Made by a program: the position numbers and the translations under genes | The notes under the pieces: generated by a model | The model's input: only the letters and a program-made list of their open reading frames with translations | Databases searched by the model: none | Told to the model about the DNA's origin: nothing | Assembly: GCF_016722765.1 (NCBI RefSeq) | Contig: NZ_JAEQND010000012.1 | Span: forward strand, 124,001 to 188,000 | Length of the DNA stretch: 64,000 bases | Source: Ramlibacter alkalitolerans | Lineage (GTDB): Bacteria > Pseudomonadota > Gammaproteobacteria > Burkholderiales > Burkholderiaceae_C | Direction of reading: 5' to 3' | Shown here: positions 47,466 to 53,761 of the stretch, one piece after another | Layout of the letters: every line of letters begins with the position of its first letter | Position numbering within the stretch: the first letter of the stretch is position 1

Positions 47466-48335
47466 TCAGCTCGCCCGCACGAACACGGTCTTGACGCCGA
47501 GCCAGGCCAGGGCGGCGAGGCCGACGAAGGGCGCCACCAGGATCCAGGCCAGGCCGAGGAACGGGGCCGCGACGATGCCTGCAGCGACCTTGGCCGCACC
47601 GGCAAACCCGCGGTTCTCGGTCTCAGCGACGATGGGGCTCGCCGCCTCGGGCGCGACGGCCGGCACTTCGGCGACGGGCGCCGGTGCCGGTTCCTGCGCG
47701 ACCGCGACCTCGTCCGGCGCTTGCGCCTGGCCCGCATCCTTGCCCTTGATGGCCAGCCAGGCCAGCATGCCGAGGCCCACGAAGGGCAGCAGCACCGCAT
47801 ACAGCAGGCCGATGAAGGGCGCCGCGAGGAACAGCGCCATGTTGCGCAGCGTGCGCAGCACGCCGACCTTCTGCGGCGCTGCGGCGGCAGGGGCCGCGGC
47901 GGCCGGCGCGGCGATCGGCGACGCCAGCGGCGCCGGTTCCGTGCGCGGCGCCGTCACGCCTTCCATGACGGTGCGCACGGCCTTCTCGGCGCTGTCCTCG
48001 ATCATCTCGGGCGACAGCGGCTTGTGCAGGAACTCGCTCACGCCGCAGGCCAGGGCCCGCGCCTCGCTGGCCGGCGAGCCGTAGCCGGTGACGATCACCA
48101 CCGGCGTCCAGGGTTGTGCCGCGCGCACCCTTTCGGCCACCTGCAGTCCGTCCATGCCGGGCATGCGCAGGTCCGTGAACACGGCGTCGAACTTCTCGGC
48201 CTTCAGCCGGTCGAGGGCCTGCTGCCCGTTTTCAGCGGCCACCACCAGGTAGCCCTTGCCGGAGAGGACGCGCTTGAAGCTCGCTCCCACCACCGGATCG
48301 TCGTCGACGACGAGAAGTTTGCGCAGTGCTGTCAT
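47466..48335 (-). CDS. Response regulator with duplicated C-terminal hydrophobic hairpins
   Basis: A 289-residue protein. Residues 5-120 are a receiver domain with Asp55 (TDLRMPG) and Lys105 (LHKPL). A Pro/Ala-rich linker leads to a hydrophobic segment (166-197, APFIGLLYAVLLPFVGLGML), a second Pro/Ala linker, and a second one (250-284, APFLGLAWILVAPFVGLAAL) clearly duplicated from the first. There is no DNA-binding or enzyme domain. It would be a receiver held at the inner membrane. It lies between another response regulator and the nine-haem cytochrome gene. Confidence 0.85.
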   Translation of the reverse strand: MTALRKLLVVDDDPVVGASFKRVLSGKGYLVVAAENGQQALDRLKAEKFDAVFTDLRMPGMDGLQVAERVRAAQPWTPVVIVTGYGSPASEARALACGVSEFLHKPLSPEMIEDSAEKAVRTVMEGVTAPRTEPAPLASPIAAPAAAAPAAAAPQKVGVLRTLRNMALFLAAPFIGLLYAVLLPFVGLGMLAWLAIKGKDAGQAQAPDEVAVAQEPAPAPVAEVPAVAPEAASPIVAETENRGFAGAAKVAAGIVAAPFLGLAWILVAPFVGLAALAWLGVKTVFVRAS

Positions 48336-49126: not shown

Positions 49127-49140
49127 TTGACGTCCGTCAA
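49127..49140 (+). promoter_or_regulatory. FNR/DNR-type box TTGAC-GTCC-GTCAA
   Basis: A perfect inverted repeat with 5-bp arms and 4-bp centre, in the form bound by Crp-Fnr family regulators such as DNR/NNR. It lies in the gap between the cytochrome operon and the rubrerythrin/CoA-ligase gene, about 218 bp from the latter's start. Confidence 0.55.
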
Positions 49141-49205: not shown

Positions 49206-49219
49206 TTGAGGCACGTCAA
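49206..49219 (+). promoter_or_regulatory. FNR/DNR-type box TTGAG-GCAC-GTCAA with class II spacing
   Basis: Second box in the same gap, one base off a perfect palindrome. A TTTACT hexamer at 49242-49247 is placed so that the box would be centred near -41.5 of a start at about 49254, the usual position for FNR-type activation. It points toward the rubrerythrin/CoA-ligase gene. Confidence 0.5.
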
Positions 49220-49357
49220 CGTCGCCGCGGCACGCGCGCTGTTTACTGCAACGCGCAGCGACCCCAGAACAAGCAGGAGACAAAGTCTTATCCGCGCCCG
49301 CACCGCGGGCCTTGCCGCGCCCTGCTGCGGCCCGTCCCGCTGCGCGTGGAGACTGCC

Positions 49358-51487
49358 ATGGTCCGCATTGCGCCAGAGACCGAGACGACGCCCTTCCTGT
49401 GTGCCAACGCACCGACGCAGTGGCACTGCCCGGACTGCGGCGTCATCAGCATCGGCTTTGCCTTCCCCTACGGCCGCTGTCCGCATTGCGGCGGCCAGAT
49501 GGCGCTGCTGCACGAGCCGCGCCGCCTCGGCCCCGACCAGGCGGCGCAGCACGCGGTGCGGCTCGCCTTCGAGATCGAGCTCGGCGGACGCGCCTTCTAC
49601 CAGCGCGCCGCCGCCGAGACGACGGACGACACGCTGCGCCTGCTGTTCTCGCAGTTCGCGCTGATGGAGGGCGAACACATGGAGACGCTGAGCGATCGCT
49701 ACCGCGTCGACGTTCCGGTGCCCTCGCCGGGATTCCGCATCGAGCTGGCCGCCCTGTTCGCGCACGTGGAGCACCGGCCGCAGGATCCCGACAACCTGTT
49801 CCGCATCGCCATCGCGCTGGAGGAACGCGCGGCGGCCTTCTTCCGCATGCGCGCGGCGGTCGCGCCGGCCGGCTCCTCCGAGCAGCAGCTGTACCTGGAG
49901 CTCGGCGCCGAGGAGATCGAGCACGCCGACATCCTCACCACGGCCTATCAGGAGTGGCGCGCCCGCCAGCCGGCGGCCGAGGCGCCTCCCGCGCAGGAAG
50001 TGGCGCCAGCCGTCGGCCCGGCGCCGCTCAATGGCGCGGAACTGCTGCTGGCGCAGGGCGAGGCCGACCAGGTAGCGCTGGTGTGCGGGGACCAGCAGCT
50101 CACGTATGCGCAGTTGCGCGACCGGGTCGCGCGCGCGGCCGGCGCCTGGAAGGCGCGCGGGCTGCGGCCGGGCGACCGCGTCGCCGTCAAGCTGCCGGAT
50201 GGCATCGACTGGGTGGTGGCCTTCCTCGGCACCATCTGGGCCGGCGGCGTCGCGGTGGCCGTGAACCCGCACGTCCCGGCCGCCGAATGGAACTACATCC
50301 TCGACGAGGCGGGCTTCGCCATCATCCTGGCGGAGCATGCCGACGACACGCCCGCGCCGTGGGGCGGCCGTGTGATCCAGCTCGAGCCGGGCCGGCATGA
50401 AGTGACCGCCGCCGAGCCGGTGCGGGCGCACCGGGTCGACGACGACACGCCGGCGTTCTGGTGCCATTCCTCCGGCACCTCGGGCAAGCCCAAGGCGGTG
50501 GTGCACCGGCACCGCTTCGCGCGCGAGATCGAGCGCGTCTCGTGCGAGCGCCTGGGCATCACCGCGCAGGACCGCCTGTTCGCCACCTCGCGCCTGTTCT
50601 TCTCCTATCCGCAGACCAACAGCCTGTTCGCGGGGCTGAAGATCGGCGCCACCGTCATCCTCGATCCGCAGTGGCCCACCGCGGCATCGGCCGCCGCGAT
50701 CGTGGAACGCCAGCGACCCACCGTGTTCTTCAGCGTGCCCTCGCTGTACCGCAACCTGCTGCACGCCGGCCTGGCCCCCGCGATCGTCGCCGCGGGCGTG
50801 CGCCTGTGCGTCTCGGCCGGCGAGATGCTGCCGGCGAGCCTGCGCGACGCCTGGCGCAAGGCGACCGGGCTGGAGATGATCGACGGCTACGGCGCCTCCG
50901 AAACGCTGGTGCTGGTGCTGACGGCGCGCGGCGACGACGACGGCCTGCAGCCCTCACCGGGCGTCGAGGTGCATCCCCTGGACCCCGAGGCCGCGGCGGC
51001 GGGAATGCCGACCCGACTGAGCTTCCACGTCTCGACGCTGGCGCGCGGCTACCTCGATCGACCCGCCGCGCAGGCGCAGTCCTTCCGGGGCGACGCCTTC
51101 TGCCCGGCCGACCTGTTCGTGCCCACGCGCGGCGGCGGCTGGCGCTTCGCCGGTCGCGAGGATTCGCTGGTGAAGATCCGCGGCCGCTGGGTCAACCTGG
51201 TGGAGCTGGAGGAGAAGCTCGCCGCCGGCGTGCCGGGCGTGCTCGAGGCGGCGACGGTCTGCGTGCCGGACGAGGACGGCGTCGATTCGGTCGTGCTGTT
51301 CTTCGCCGCCAGGCCGGGCGAAGCGGCGCGCGCCGAAGAAGGCCTGCGGGCCCGCGCGGCGAGCCTGCGGCCGCACGAGCGGCCGCGGTCCTTCCACGAC
51401 GTGCCCGCCCTGCCCCGCACGGCCACCGGCAAGCTGCTGCGGCGCAAGCTGGCGGACGCGTTCGTCAACGGGGTGGCGGCCGCGTAG
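49358..51487 (+). CDS. Rubrerythrin-like di-iron domain fused to an acyl-CoA/benzoate-CoA ligase-like domain
   Basis: A 709-residue protein. Residues 24-44 are a rubredoxin-like CPDCG/CPHCG knuckle. Residues about 64-200 are a ferritin-like four-helix domain with two ExxH motifs (E104-H107, E186-H189) plus Glu72/74 and Glu155/156, a full di-iron ligand set. From about 225 onward is an AMP-forming ligase: SSGTSGKPKAVVH, GYGASET, FAGREDSLVKIRGRWVN and the late Lys in RTATGKLL. It resembles benzoate-CoA ligases in the second part. The ATG at 49358 has GGAGA upstream. The reading frame through the junction is uninterrupted. Confidence 0.88.
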   Translation: MVRIAPETETTPFLCANAPTQWHCPDCGVISIGFAFPYGRCPHCGGQMALLHEPRRLGPDQAAQHAVRLAFEIELGGRAFYQRAAAETTDDTLRLLFSQFALMEGEHMETLSDRYRVDVPVPSPGFRIELAALFAHVEHRPQDPDNLFRIAIALEERAAAFFRMRAAVAPAGSSEQQLYLELGAEEIEHADILTTAYQEWRARQPAAEAPPAQEVAPAVGPAPLNGAELLLAQGEADQVALVCGDQQLTYAQLRDRVARAAGAWKARGLRPGDRVAVKLPDGIDWVVAFLGTIWAGGVAVAVNPHVPAAEWNYILDEAGFAIILAEHADDTPAPWGGRVIQLEPGRHEVTAAEPVRAHRVDDDTPAFWCHSSGTSGKPKAVVHRHRFAREIERVSCERLGITAQDRLFATSRLFFSYPQTNSLFAGLKIGATVILDPQWPTAASAAAIVERQRPTVFFSVPSLYRNLLHAGLAPAIVAAGVRLCVSAGEMLPASLRDAWRKATGLEMIDGYGASETLVLVLTARGDDDGLQPSPGVEVHPLDPEAAAAGMPTRLSFHVSTLARGYLDRPAAQAQSFRGDAFCPADLFVPTRGGGWRFAGREDSLVKIRGRWVNLVELEEKLAAGVPGVLEAATVCVPDEDGVDSVVLFFAARPGEAARAEEGLRARAASLRPHERPRSFHDVPALPRTATGKLLRRKLADAFVNGVAAA

Positions 51488-51875
51488 GCACTACGGGGGA
51501 GCCGCCTTCCACCCGCAGGATGGCGAGTCGCGTGCCGGCCGGCAGTGCCGCCTGCACGGCCAGGACGGCGGCCTGCGCCGACTGCTGTTTCGGATCGAGC
51601 ACGAAGGACACGGCGGCCGGCTCCGCGGACACGCGCACGCTGCGCGCTTCGACGCCGCGCACGCGCGCCGCCGCCACGCGCGCACGCTGCACGTCGCGCA
51701 AGCCCACGACGTCGCAATAGACCACCAGGCGGCCGCGCGCCAGCGCATCCTGCACCGAGCGGTAGTCGTAGGTCGCGGCCACCTTGTCTTCGATGCAGAC
51801 CCCGCACGCCTGCGCCGGTGCGCCCAGCAGCAGCGCGAGCGCGCCGCCGAGCGCCGCACGGGCCGCCGCCTTCAT
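51465..51875 (-). CDS. Small exported protein with CGVC motif and HMA-like fold
   Basis: A 136-residue protein with a signal peptide (PAQA end) followed at once by CGVCIEDKVAATYD. The rest alternates as beta-alpha-beta-beta-alpha-beta (LVVYCDV ... VRGVEARSVRV ... VSFVLD ... LAVQAAL ... RLAILRV), the order of heavy-metal-associated domains. Its ATG overlaps the nitrite reductase stop (ATGA), so it may deliver copper to that enzyme; this is inference. Its 3' end overlaps the convergent ligase gene by 23 bp. Confidence 0.7.
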   Translation of the reverse strand: MKAAARAALGGALALLLGAPAQACGVCIEDKVAATYDYRSVQDALARGRLVVYCDVVGLRDVQRARVAAARVRGVEARSVRVSAEPAAVSFVLDPKQQSAQAAVLAVQAALPAGTRLAILRVEGGSPVVPTRPPPR

Positions 51876-53590
51876 CGCCGCGCTCCCGAGCCCGCGCCGG
51901 CAGGCGCCGAAGCGCCGCGCTGCGTCGCCGGCGCGGTCGGGCTCGGCATGCCCGAGGCTGGCGAAGCCGCCGCACCTGGCGTGGTGCCCGGCGCCGCCGC
52001 ACCCGGCGTCGTGCCCGTGGCGGGCGAGCTCGCGCCGGTGCCGCCCGCGGCCGGCGCGCTCGCCCCAGCAGCCGGCGCACTTGCGCCGGGCACGGCCGCC
52101 GCCGCCGTCGCCGTCGCCGTCGGCTGGATGTTGGCGTCGGCCCACTTGAAGTATTCGATGTAGCCCTTGATCTCCTCGTCGCTCAGGCCCTGGTTGGGCA
52201 TCGGGATCTTCCAGCGCTCCAGCATCGCCTTGGCGGTGGGGTCGGTCTGCAGCATCTGCTCGGGCGACTTCAGCCAGCGCGTGAGCCACGCGGTGTCGTG
52301 CCGCTTGGTGGTCCCCAGCAGGTCGGGGCCGAGCTTGTCGCCGCCGCCCAGCGAGTGGCAGGCCAGGCACTTGGACTGGAACGCTAGCTGGGCGCGCTGC
52401 GCGGTGGGATCGGTCGGCACCATCTGCGTCGCCGGGATGTTGTGGTGTTCCGGGTCGCCCTGCACGTTGCCGGCGGCGATGAAGCCGATGGCGCCCTGCG
52501 ACGCATTGGCGAAATGGTGGTCCACCATCACGTAGTTGCCGGCCTCGGGGATCATGAATTCCACGATCGCGCTGTTGGACGAGCCGAGCAGCACGGTCTG
52601 CGCGCCGCGCAGCTGGTTGTCCGGGTTGCCCTCGAGCCAGACGCGGTCGAAGATCGTGCCGACGACGTGGAAGCTGGAGGTGTTGGAGGGGCCCACGTTC
52701 AGCACGAACAGGCGCACGCGCTCGCCCGGGTTGGATACCAGGGGCTTGTCGACCATGCCGTTGTAGCGGCCGTTGAACACGGTGTAGGTCGGCGCCTTGG
52801 TGCGCACGCGCGCGCCGTCCAGCACGTACAGCGGCGCGCCGTCCACCTTGCGCTTGTCGGGGTCGAGCCGGGTGTAGAACTCGCTCTGCACCACCGCGTA
52901 CTCGCGGTCGGCCTTTGTCGGGTAGCCGCCGCGCGGCTCCACGATCATCATGCCGTACATGCCCGAGGCGATGTGTTCCAGCACCATCGGCGTGCCGCAG
53001 TGGTACATGTACACGCCCGCGTAGTTGAGCGTGAACTCGAAGGAGATCGTCTGCCCCGGCGCGATCGACTTGTACTTGTCCCCGGGCGAGACCATCGCCG
53101 AGTGGAAGTCCATCGAGTGCATCATCGGTGCGGCCTGCAGGCTCACGCCCGGCATCACCTCGTCGGACCGGTTGGTCATGCTGAACTTGATGCGGTCGCC
53201 CACCCGGGCACGGATCACCGGCCCCGGCACCGTGTCGCCGAAGGTCCAGGCGCTGAACTTCACGCCCGGTGCGATCTCGATGATCTTGTGCGTCGTGTCC
53301 AGCCGCACTTCCTTCACCGGTGAGGGATCCAGCGGCTGGAGCGCGGGCCCGGGACTGATCGCGTTGCCGAACGCGAAGGTGCCGGTGTGCCGGTCGGCCG
53401 AGACCACGGAAGGCGTGGGCTTCAGGTCCATCTTCGAGACGTCGTAGTCGTCGGCGGGGCCGCTGCGGGCGGCCGGCGCGGACGCCGGTGCCGATGCCGG
53501 CGTCGCCGCGGGTTGCTCCGGGATGCGCTCGCTGCACGCGGCGAGCAGTGCGAGACCGGCCAGGATGAGGAGAACGGAACGTGGCAGCAT
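51872..53590 (-). CDS. Copper nitrite reductase-like lipoprotein fused to cytochrome c
   Basis: A 572-residue lipoprotein (LLAAC lipobox, Cys19). Two cupredoxin domains carry type 1 copper ligands His158, Cys198, His206 and Met211 and type 2 ligands His163, His197 and His358; Asp161 matches the catalytic Asp. The catalytic His of NirK (in SHVVFNG-type stretches) is a Tyr here (TYTVFNG, Tyr269). A cytochrome c domain follows (CLACH, residues 408-412; Met464 in KIPMPNQG), then a long Ala/Pro/Thr/Gly-rich tail. It probably reduces nitrite to NO, with its own electron donor attached, but the Tyr is a caution. Confidence 0.85.
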   Translation of the reverse strand: MLPRSVLLILAGLALLAACSERIPEQPAATPASAPASAPAARSGPADDYDVSKMDLKPTPSVVSADRHTGTFAFGNAISPGPALQPLDPSPVKEVRLDTTHKIIEIAPGVKFSAWTFGDTVPGPVIRARVGDRIKFSMTNRSDEVMPGVSLQAAPMMHSMDFHSAMVSPGDKYKSIAPGQTISFEFTLNYAGVYMYHCGTPMVLEHIASGMYGMMIVEPRGGYPTKADREYAVVQSEFYTRLDPDKRKVDGAPLYVLDGARVRTKAPTYTVFNGRYNGMVDKPLVSNPGERVRLFVLNVGPSNTSSFHVVGTIFDRVWLEGNPDNQLRGAQTVLLGSSNSAIVEFMIPEAGNYVMVDHHFANASQGAIGFIAAGNVQGDPEHHNIPATQMVPTDPTAQRAQLAFQSKCLACHSLGGGDKLGPDLLGTTKRHDTAWLTRWLKSPEQMLQTDPTAKAMLERWKIPMPNQGLSDEEIKGYIEYFKWADANIQPTATATAAAAVPGASAPAAGASAPAAGGTGASSPATGTTPGAAAPGTTPGAAASPASGMPSPTAPATQRGASAPAGAGSGARR

Positions 53591-53761
53591 GCGGGCGTCC
53601 TTCGCGTCTTCAGGGCGGCTGAGTCTAGCCACGGACGACAGTTTCGTGGGGCGAAGGCGCGTCGCAGCGCGGCCTCAGTGTCGGCGGGAAATGAGGTGAG
53701 CGACAGTCCCGGATAGCGTGCGTTCTTTCTTCTGATGAGGGCTGCTGTCCATAATCGGCGC

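Follow-up and report, generated by a model that had tools for sequence, protein, structure and literature searches.

Rubrerythrins, reverse rubrerythrins, and the ferritin-like proteins of COG1633 (2oh3 and 2fzf) share a four-helix bundle, in which the rubrerythrin di-iron ligands follow the pattern E, ExxH, E, and ExxH on four helices, and benzoate-CoA ligases of the ANL type (4rlf, 4eat, and 2v7b) as well as HbdA (NF053567) consist of an adenylation and a C-terminal domain with a P-loop core and a C-terminal lysine. Here, we describe a gene of Ramlibacter alkalitolerans (Pseudomonadota; Gammaproteobacteria; Burkholderiales) in which parts of both kinds are joined, located in a 64,000-nucleotide stretch of contig NZ_JAEQND010000012.1 (positions 124,001 to 188,000; assembly GCF_016722765.1) that is called the window below. 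The chain of its product, the window protein, runs from a rubredoxin-like knuckle through a predicted four-helix di-iron domain and a linker to a complete aroyl-CoA ligase. Compared with the known ligases, it shares the features listed above but adds a predicted metal-binding N-terminal module of 200 residues and scores under both curated cut-offs; in relatives, the fusion is tied to hcr (4-hydroxybenzoyl-CoA reductase) genes, whereas two other benzoate-CoA ligase-like genes of the same genome lie near boxB. Compared with the rubrerythrins, it shares the bundle, the Glu/His pattern, and, as in reverse rubrerythrins, an N-terminal rubredoxin-like knuckle, but it has an alanine (Ala158) in place of an extra glutamate and is fused to a ligase, and most of its relatives have a further CPxC...CC knuckle.

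Two other systems resemble the module or its surroundings. The last 190 residues of the “trifunctional” Nfn-like protein with a ferritin domain (PRK12775/NF009413) are the same module, which there stands C-terminal to a fused Nfn, whereas in the window protein it stands N-terminal to the ligase and the Nfn part is absent. AadN of Rhodopseudomonas palustris (a pattern B Nfn) is a fused Nfn for anaerobic aromatic degradation that is required for growth on benzoate and 4-hydroxybenzoate, and the main text of its report contains the words “ferritin” and “rubrerythrin” zero times (PMC9973337). Directly upstream of many fusions lies a similar gene (AadN-like, as judged from its fused Nfn make-up and not by direct comparison to AadN itself), but the window’s genome has no match to it at E 1e-150. 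Our search of open-licence papers found no description of a rubrerythrin-ligase fusion, and the portion of PMC10803450 available to us uses “fusion” and “rubrerythrin” zero times. The gene thus presents known parts in a new, conserved combination, which suggests that the anaerobic pathway for benzoate and 4-hydroxybenzoate has a partner not yet studied. It is an open question how facultative bacteria operate, at oxic-anoxic boundaries, dearomatising enzymes that are sensitive to oxygen, and an aroyl-CoA ligase with a candidate O2/peroxide-reducing module, linked by gene order to AadN-like genes, offers a concrete candidate for protection or redox coupling.

Results

The fusion is intact and recurs among Burkholderiales

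The frame of the fusion gene has no internal stops, and an earlier note, made from the letters of the window alone, had read it as a rubrerythrin domain and a CoA ligase in one chain. This reading is borne out by the single 709-aa frame and by a scan of relatives, which yielded at least 54 further fusion loci, mostly labelled Burkholderiales. The locus scan took one genome per species and kept the best 80 of 206 relatives, giving 79 loci, 54 of which (L048-L101) encode module and ligase and 25 of which (L102-L126) encode the module without this ligase; other architectures may exist beyond the best 80. Some genomes supply two loci. Five of the genes are truncated at contig ends (L053, L081, L090, L093, and L094), and the match of L089 stops at residue 609. 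The majority of the 54 carry the labels Ramlibacter, Rubrivivax, Ideonella, Piscinibacter, Rhizobacter, Aquabacterium, Rhodoferax, Comamonadaceae, Burkholderiaceae, or Burkholderiales, and a few just Pseudomonadota, Proteobacteria, Gammaproteobacteria, or uncultured bacterium. One record labelled “Anaerolineales” (L065), a metagenome-assembled genome (MAG), holds a fusion that scarcely differs from the Aquabacterium one (L067) and may be mis-binned; no gene is called across the 10 kb upstream of its fusion, and a masked stretch was ruled out as the cause, since the sequence contains no N. In two Ramlibacter MAGs, a second fusion copy (L054:18949-21015 and L089) is 65-66% identical to the window protein.

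The nearest fusion relative is that of Ramlibacter monticola (80%). Between the two species, ratios of nonsynonymous to synonymous change (dN/dS, by a simple counting method) are 0.23 in the ligase, 0.48 in the di-iron domain, 0.43 in the Cys-rich part, and 0.57 in the linker (16 codons). The earlier note held that its claim would fall if the fusion were an isolated sequencing artefact; the 54 further loci among the best 80 of 206 relatives, together with dN/dS below 1, exclude an artefact or a pseudogene. A search of genomes of the same family gave some ligase match in all 200, and module plus ligase at 61-67% identity in five besides our own (G193, G017, G098, G199, and G101), where the G101 match extends to residue 588 in the genome search and to residue 700 by tblastn.

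Both domains of the fusion are folded in the full-length structural model (predicted local distance difference test, pLDDT, 84.2), and linker residues 206-218 lie under pLDDT 50; linker identity to R. monticola is 31% over 16 codons. The ligase is complete, as the earlier note had stated, with AMP-binding (207 bits) and AMP-binding_C (31.6 bits) both above the Pfam cut-offs, and these two families, the P-loop core, and the C-terminal lysine place it among ANL enzymes. Conservation was read from an alignment of 56 fusion rows (the window, the 54 loci, and L038) and 29 other rows (L102-L126, L040, L041, L045, and L046); over the module, L038 duplicates L084, L107 duplicates L106, and L045 duplicates L126, and L040 probably represents the first half of a fusion interrupted by a contig end. 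The P-loop core SGTSGxPK is invariant in the 56 rows, with flanking and internal letters varying (HSSGTSGKPKA in 40 rows, four variants among the other 16), and K692 is present in 53/53 aligned rows, with ligase positions such as 509, 511, and 613 variable. The closest solved structures are benzoate-CoA ligases (4rlf, 4eat, and 2v7b; ~1e-60), and the scores stay under the curated cut-offs of both HbdA (NF053567; 306.7 bits, cut-off 1000) and benz_CoA_lig (TIGR02262; 260.7 bits, cut-off 375.25). Rows L038 and L084 carry an Ala/Gly/Pro-rich insertion of ~45 residues within the ligase near residue 588.

Predicted di-iron and rubredoxin-like residues are conserved

The module is borderline for Pfam Rubrerythrin (PF02915), at 21.6 bits in the whole protein and 23.6 bits with the domain alone (gathering cut-off 22.8), and the same family matches all 60 rows of our module alignment A3 at E <= 0.001. 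Residues 13-204 match positions 813-1002 of the 1006 in NF009413/PRK12775 (2.1e-71 with the whole protein; 241 bits against the 1895 needed for full-length membership), and a profile search of solved structures with the module found 2fzf, 2oh3, and 1vjx and, weakly, a stretch of DNA polymerase D.

The window protein carries Cys24, Cys27, Cys41, and Cys44 together with E72, E74, E104, H107, E155, E185, E186, and H189. The last six of these are present in all 56 fusion and all 29 other rows, and E72 and E74 in 55/55 aligned fusion rows and 29/29 others. For the cysteines, which form a rubredoxin-type CxxC...CxxC arrangement, the counts are 52/52 (Cys24 and Cys27), 52/53 (Cys41), and 53/54 (Cys44) aligned fusion rows, and 29/29 others have all four; the sole exception is L061, whose frame shows no knuckle. 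A model of the module alone (pLDDT 86.7) has helices at residues 59-87, 91-115, 144-168, and 174-203, so that the ligand groups of the rubrerythrin pattern, E74, E104/H107, E155, and E186/H189, invariant wherever aligned, fall on four helices. The full ligand set and the knuckle that the earlier note described are thus present, and its own counter-test, ligands not conserved among homologues, came out in its favour. A second ferritin/rubrerythrin-like protein is encoded in the same genome at L135:10005-10514, and similar 163-aa genes occur in many hcr clusters.

In relatives, the fusion belongs to an anaerobic aromatic cluster

The gene order in relatives is hcrC-hcrA-hcrB-(AadN-like fused Nfn gene)-fusion-enoyl-CoA hydratase (ech)-BadH-like dehydrogenase, which places the fusion there in a cluster for anaerobic 4-hydroxybenzoate/benzoate breakdown. 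HcrA and HcrB of the representatives scanned score above their NCBIfam cut-offs, HcrC slightly under (252.8 of 257.8 bits), and the dehydrogenase under that of BadH. Among the 42 fusion loci with >1.5 kb upstream, the nearest reference gene within 300 nt upstream is AadN-like in 17, hcrB in 17, and neither in eight (L048, L056, L065, L077, L080, L089, L099, and L100; L056 has an AadN-like gene ~1 kb away). The hydratase follows within 400 nt in 33 of the 50 loci with >1 kb downstream, and a pathway gene is found in 36 of the 40 loci of at least 12 kb. The AadN-like gene is also present in 25/25 module-only loci; judging by frame length, the module forms the C-terminal end of a long frame in 15 of these and has a gene of its own in ten.

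Linkage to the hcr genes in relatives is accompanied by co-occurrence across genomes. Taking as the ligase family all matches of >=395 bits and >=47% identity over the ligase (a line set after viewing the matches), ten genomes qualify. HcrA scores above its cut-off in 10/10 of these (in G101 only jointly with a neighbouring piece) and in 0/69 others, in an enriched sample of 79 of the 200 genomes whose 69 others we chose ourselves and in which kinship was not corrected. Two congeners (G097 and G198) have neither. The fusion lies in one frame in six of the ten (G000, our own, and G017, G098, G101, G193, and G199) and is probably present in G094, because its halves sit at two contig ends sharing the residues ATAAAPAV. 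In G143 (L042) and G090 (L043), the ligase stands behind hcrB with the module absent, and in G027, hcrA, hcrB, the AadN-like gene, and a separate module stand in one row with the ligase unfused and located apart. A search with the AadN-like protein (18 genome records, including repeats of the same genomes; E 1e-150) found a near-full-length match in five of nine proven or probable fusion genomes (G094, G098, G193, G200, and G201).

The window’s own genome and promoter

In R. alkalitolerans itself, HcrA is encoded at G000:C1:185981-188215 (1150.7 bits), in a cluster that includes BcrA-like genes of the benzoyl-CoA pathway and genes that, from likeness, appear to encode 2-oxoacid:ferredoxin oxidoreductase. 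Behind its hcrB lies a 207-aa ligase remnant (L136:11351-11974) without the P-loop and the second half, and R. monticola has a 209-aa remnant at the same place (L139:5-634), likewise without both; since a similar length is retained in both species, this truncated gene may be more than a pseudogene. Contig C4 carries the intact fusion, and with it the single module copy of the genome, in a block that R. monticola also has and that holds genes for a sensor kinase, a sigma-54 regulator, cytochromes, response regulators, and a nitrite-reductase-like protein. On these sequence grounds, the fusion may serve the hcr/bcr route in this genome and likely supplies the ligase that the hcr cluster lacks in these Ramlibacter genomes. 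The same genome encodes an unfused ligase paralogue on contig C30 (L047:9237-10514; 45% identical over residues 213-603), which lies beside ABC-transporter-like genes and has a degenerate C-terminal part.

The FNR-type boxes that the earlier note saw in the promoter region are there. The motif TTGA-N6-TCAA occurs twice in the 64 kb, both times upstream of the fusion gene (49127 and 49206), covering 139 to 231 bases before the start codon. Shuffled sequence holds a mean of 0.14 boxes, and two boxes arose in 0/100 shuffles; chance is thus an unlikely origin for the pair, though only one box is conserved. This box, at 49206, keeps in R. monticola its 22-nt distance to TTTACT, as in promoters activated by FNR. 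Across 56 kb of the genome’s own aromatic region, one further box lies between divergent genes (L135:7285). In R. monticola, a box at L139:9379 is off this pathway.

Gains, losses, and relocation of the fusion

A ligase tree rejects the fusions as a single clade (p value of the approximately unbiased test 0.00017), because the unfused L042 and L043 group with fusions; the final tree omits L032 (a faulty outgroup row with an end branch of 10), L047 (the decayed paralogue), L039, and the outgroup rows with stops (L014, L017, and L030). L042 likely lost its module, as judged from its position within a starred set with 15 fusions and from its first residues, MPCPPC, which resemble a leftover. L043 groups with L097 and L098 alone, so that one gain with two losses and two gains with one loss require an equal number of changes. 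On the module tree, the fusion state requires four changes, and separate modules (L126, L110, L113, and L102) are mixed with fusions, partly on weak branches. The separate R. monticola module L102, beside an AadN-like gene, falls in a starred set of eight rows with seven fusions including the window and, given this place among Ramlibacter fusions, is likely a loss of the ligase part. The ligase tree places the window in a starred set of 12 fusion rows; apart from the window and the R. monticola fusion (L048), nine of these have nearby pathway genes and one (L089) has none, and it is therefore probable that the fusion gene left such a cluster for its current site. Within one bacterial group, a module is thus seen fused, separated, and relocated.

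Discussion

We hold with moderate confidence that the fusion is an anaerobically induced (hydroxy)benzoate-CoA ligase with a separate, electron-fed domain that reduces O2 or peroxide. The sequences speak for this through the architecture, its conservation, the neighbourhood in relatives, the HcrA co-occurrence in the sample, the lack of an intact ligase behind the genome’s own hcrB, and one conserved FNR-type box; beyond them, we infer the induction, substrate, metal content, electron donor and direction, and scavenging chemistry. The protein would be the ligase of the anaerobic route through 4-hydroxybenzoyl-CoA reductase and benzoyl-CoA reductase (HCR/BCR), produced at low oxygen from the FNR-type promoter, and its C-terminal 490 residues would turn acid, ATP, and CoA into aroyl-CoA (hydroxybenzoyl- or benzoyl-CoA) for these reductases. 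The N-terminal 200 residues would form a separately folded module, in which the rubredoxin-like site would accept electrons and hand them to a non-haem di-iron site that reduces peroxide or traces of O2. Elsewhere a separate gene or the C-terminal part by an AadN-type Nfn (a ferredoxin/NAD(P)H branch point), the module may have merged with the adjoining ligase gene in Burkholderiales once or twice and would accompany the ligase as an on-site scavenger shielding the oxygen-labile reductases of the pathway. Going further, and only tentatively, the module might be an unrecognised part of the AadN-type branch point, a safety valve draining NAD(P)H/ferredoxin electrons onto O2 or peroxide, in which case the ligase fusion would tie the entry of aromatic acids to the redox state where oxygen-labile reductases work.

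Several observations weigh against the scavenging ligase that we favour. Position 158, where true rubrerythrins have their additional helix-3 glutamate three residues after the first, is alanine in 56/56 fusion and 29/29 other rows, and because this glutamate is absent, peroxidase chemistry is not simply transferable. The CPxC...CC knuckle before the domain in most relatives is absent from the window protein, as it is, by the alignment listing, from L061, L085, L087, L100, L121, and L122 (in L085, a loose pattern finds CxxC only farther upstream). Structural matches of the module are ferritin-type bundles, the best being 2oh3 (Z 14.0) with nigerythrin at Z 12.4, values in the range of 12-14 that, as the tool warns, unrelated helical bundles can reach, and Foldseek returned nothing under E 0.001. 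Around the gene, four of the 40 larger loci (L048, L077, L089, and L099) have no pathway gene, the co-occurrence with HcrA comes from the chosen sample described above, the fusion gene lies outside its own hcr cluster with hcrA on another contig, and the own hcrCAB stretch (L136) has no FNR-type box. Finally, the own genome, G199, and G101 (a fragmented assembly) have no AadN-like match at E 1e-150 and G017 has only a 53% match to the second half of that protein; with four of nine fusion genomes thus lacking a near-full-length match, AadN is not the only electron donor.

The earlier note had offered a redox gate. In such a gate, a module responding to O2 or peroxide would turn the ligase on or off and thereby admit aromatic acids to the pathway only under anoxia. 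The single chain in the window and at least 54 loci, the retained ligands with a module dN/dS of 0.48, and the relevance of oxygen suggested by the FNR-type box would all suit a gate, but the linker varies and is modelled as disordered, L042 (nested among fusions) and L043 (grouping with two fusions) have the ligase at the same place but no module, and the module stands without the ligase in 25/25 module-only loci, including R. monticola L102 among Ramlibacter fusions. With linkers that vary and halves that each occur alone, gating is unsupported, and we consider it rather unlikely. Similarly improbable, in our judgement, is an adaptor without scavenging, i.e., a carrier or docking part between AadN/ferredoxin and HCR or BCR. 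Linkage to AadN-like genes and hcrB favours it, as does the proposal in the AadN report that AadN supplies electrons to benzoyl-CoA reductase (PMC9973337), but the near-full-length AadN-like match is missing in those four of nine fusion genomes, and a di-iron carboxylate site would be an unusual low-potential carrier.

The fusion could also be a by-product of neighbouring genes merging, with the module idle where AadN is missing, an explanation consistent with the survival of the ligase without the module in L042 and L043, with a module dN/dS above that of the ligase, and with the absence of the first knuckle from the window protein, L085, L087, and L100. We doubt it to the same degree, for the Glu/His ligands are invariant wherever aligned, even where the genome has no AadN-like match, and a dN/dS of 0.48 is still below 1. 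Least probable by far is the other suggestion of the earlier note, that the di-iron site oxidises the substrate activated by the ligase: di-iron sites can activate O2, and the oxygen-dependent BoxB occurs in 13 of the 15 genomes searched, our own included, but the genes around the relatives’ fusion are those of a reductive anaerobic pathway, the two own BoxB genes lie on another contig within ~6 kb of the two other benzoate-CoA ligase-like genes, the fold matches ferritin-type bundles, and, as with gating, linkers vary and each half occurs alone.

Features of the locus

Coordinates of the fusion gene, its domains and promoter elements, and one conserved neighbour are collected in Table 1.

Table 1. 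The fusion gene and associated features, in window positions
Feature	Position	Strand	Basis and remarks
Second FNR-type box TTGACGTCCGTCAA, not conserved in R. monticola	49127..49140	+	Motif search
FNR-type box TTGAGGCACGTCAA, conserved in R. monticola	49206..49219	+	Motif search
-10-like TTTACT, 22 nt past the box in both species	49242..49247	+	Spacing counted by eye
Fusion gene, 709 aa	49358..51487	+	ATG at 49358, stop ends 51487; at least 54 further fusion loci
Rubredoxin-like knuckle, residues 22-46 (Cys24, 27, 41, 44)	49421..49495	+	Alignment
Four-helix di-iron (rubrerythrin-related) domain, residues 59-203	49532..49966	+	Model helices, Glu/His conservation
Linker, residues 204-222, mostly disordered in the model, variable	49967..50023	+	pLDDT, R. 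monticola comparison
AMP-binding (adenylation) domain, residues 232-566	50051..51055	+	Pfam PF00501; P-loop core
AMP-binding C-terminal domain, residues 619-692, conserved lysine K692	51212..51433	+	Pfam PF13193
Copper nitrite reductase-like protein with C-terminal haem-binding-like part	51872..53632	-	TIGR02376 190.6 bits, under cut-off 296.3; neighbour retained in R. monticola

On the other side of the fusion gene, the minus-strand gene at 47466-48335 encodes a response regulator receiver domain and, after it, several repeats of a hydrophobic segment.

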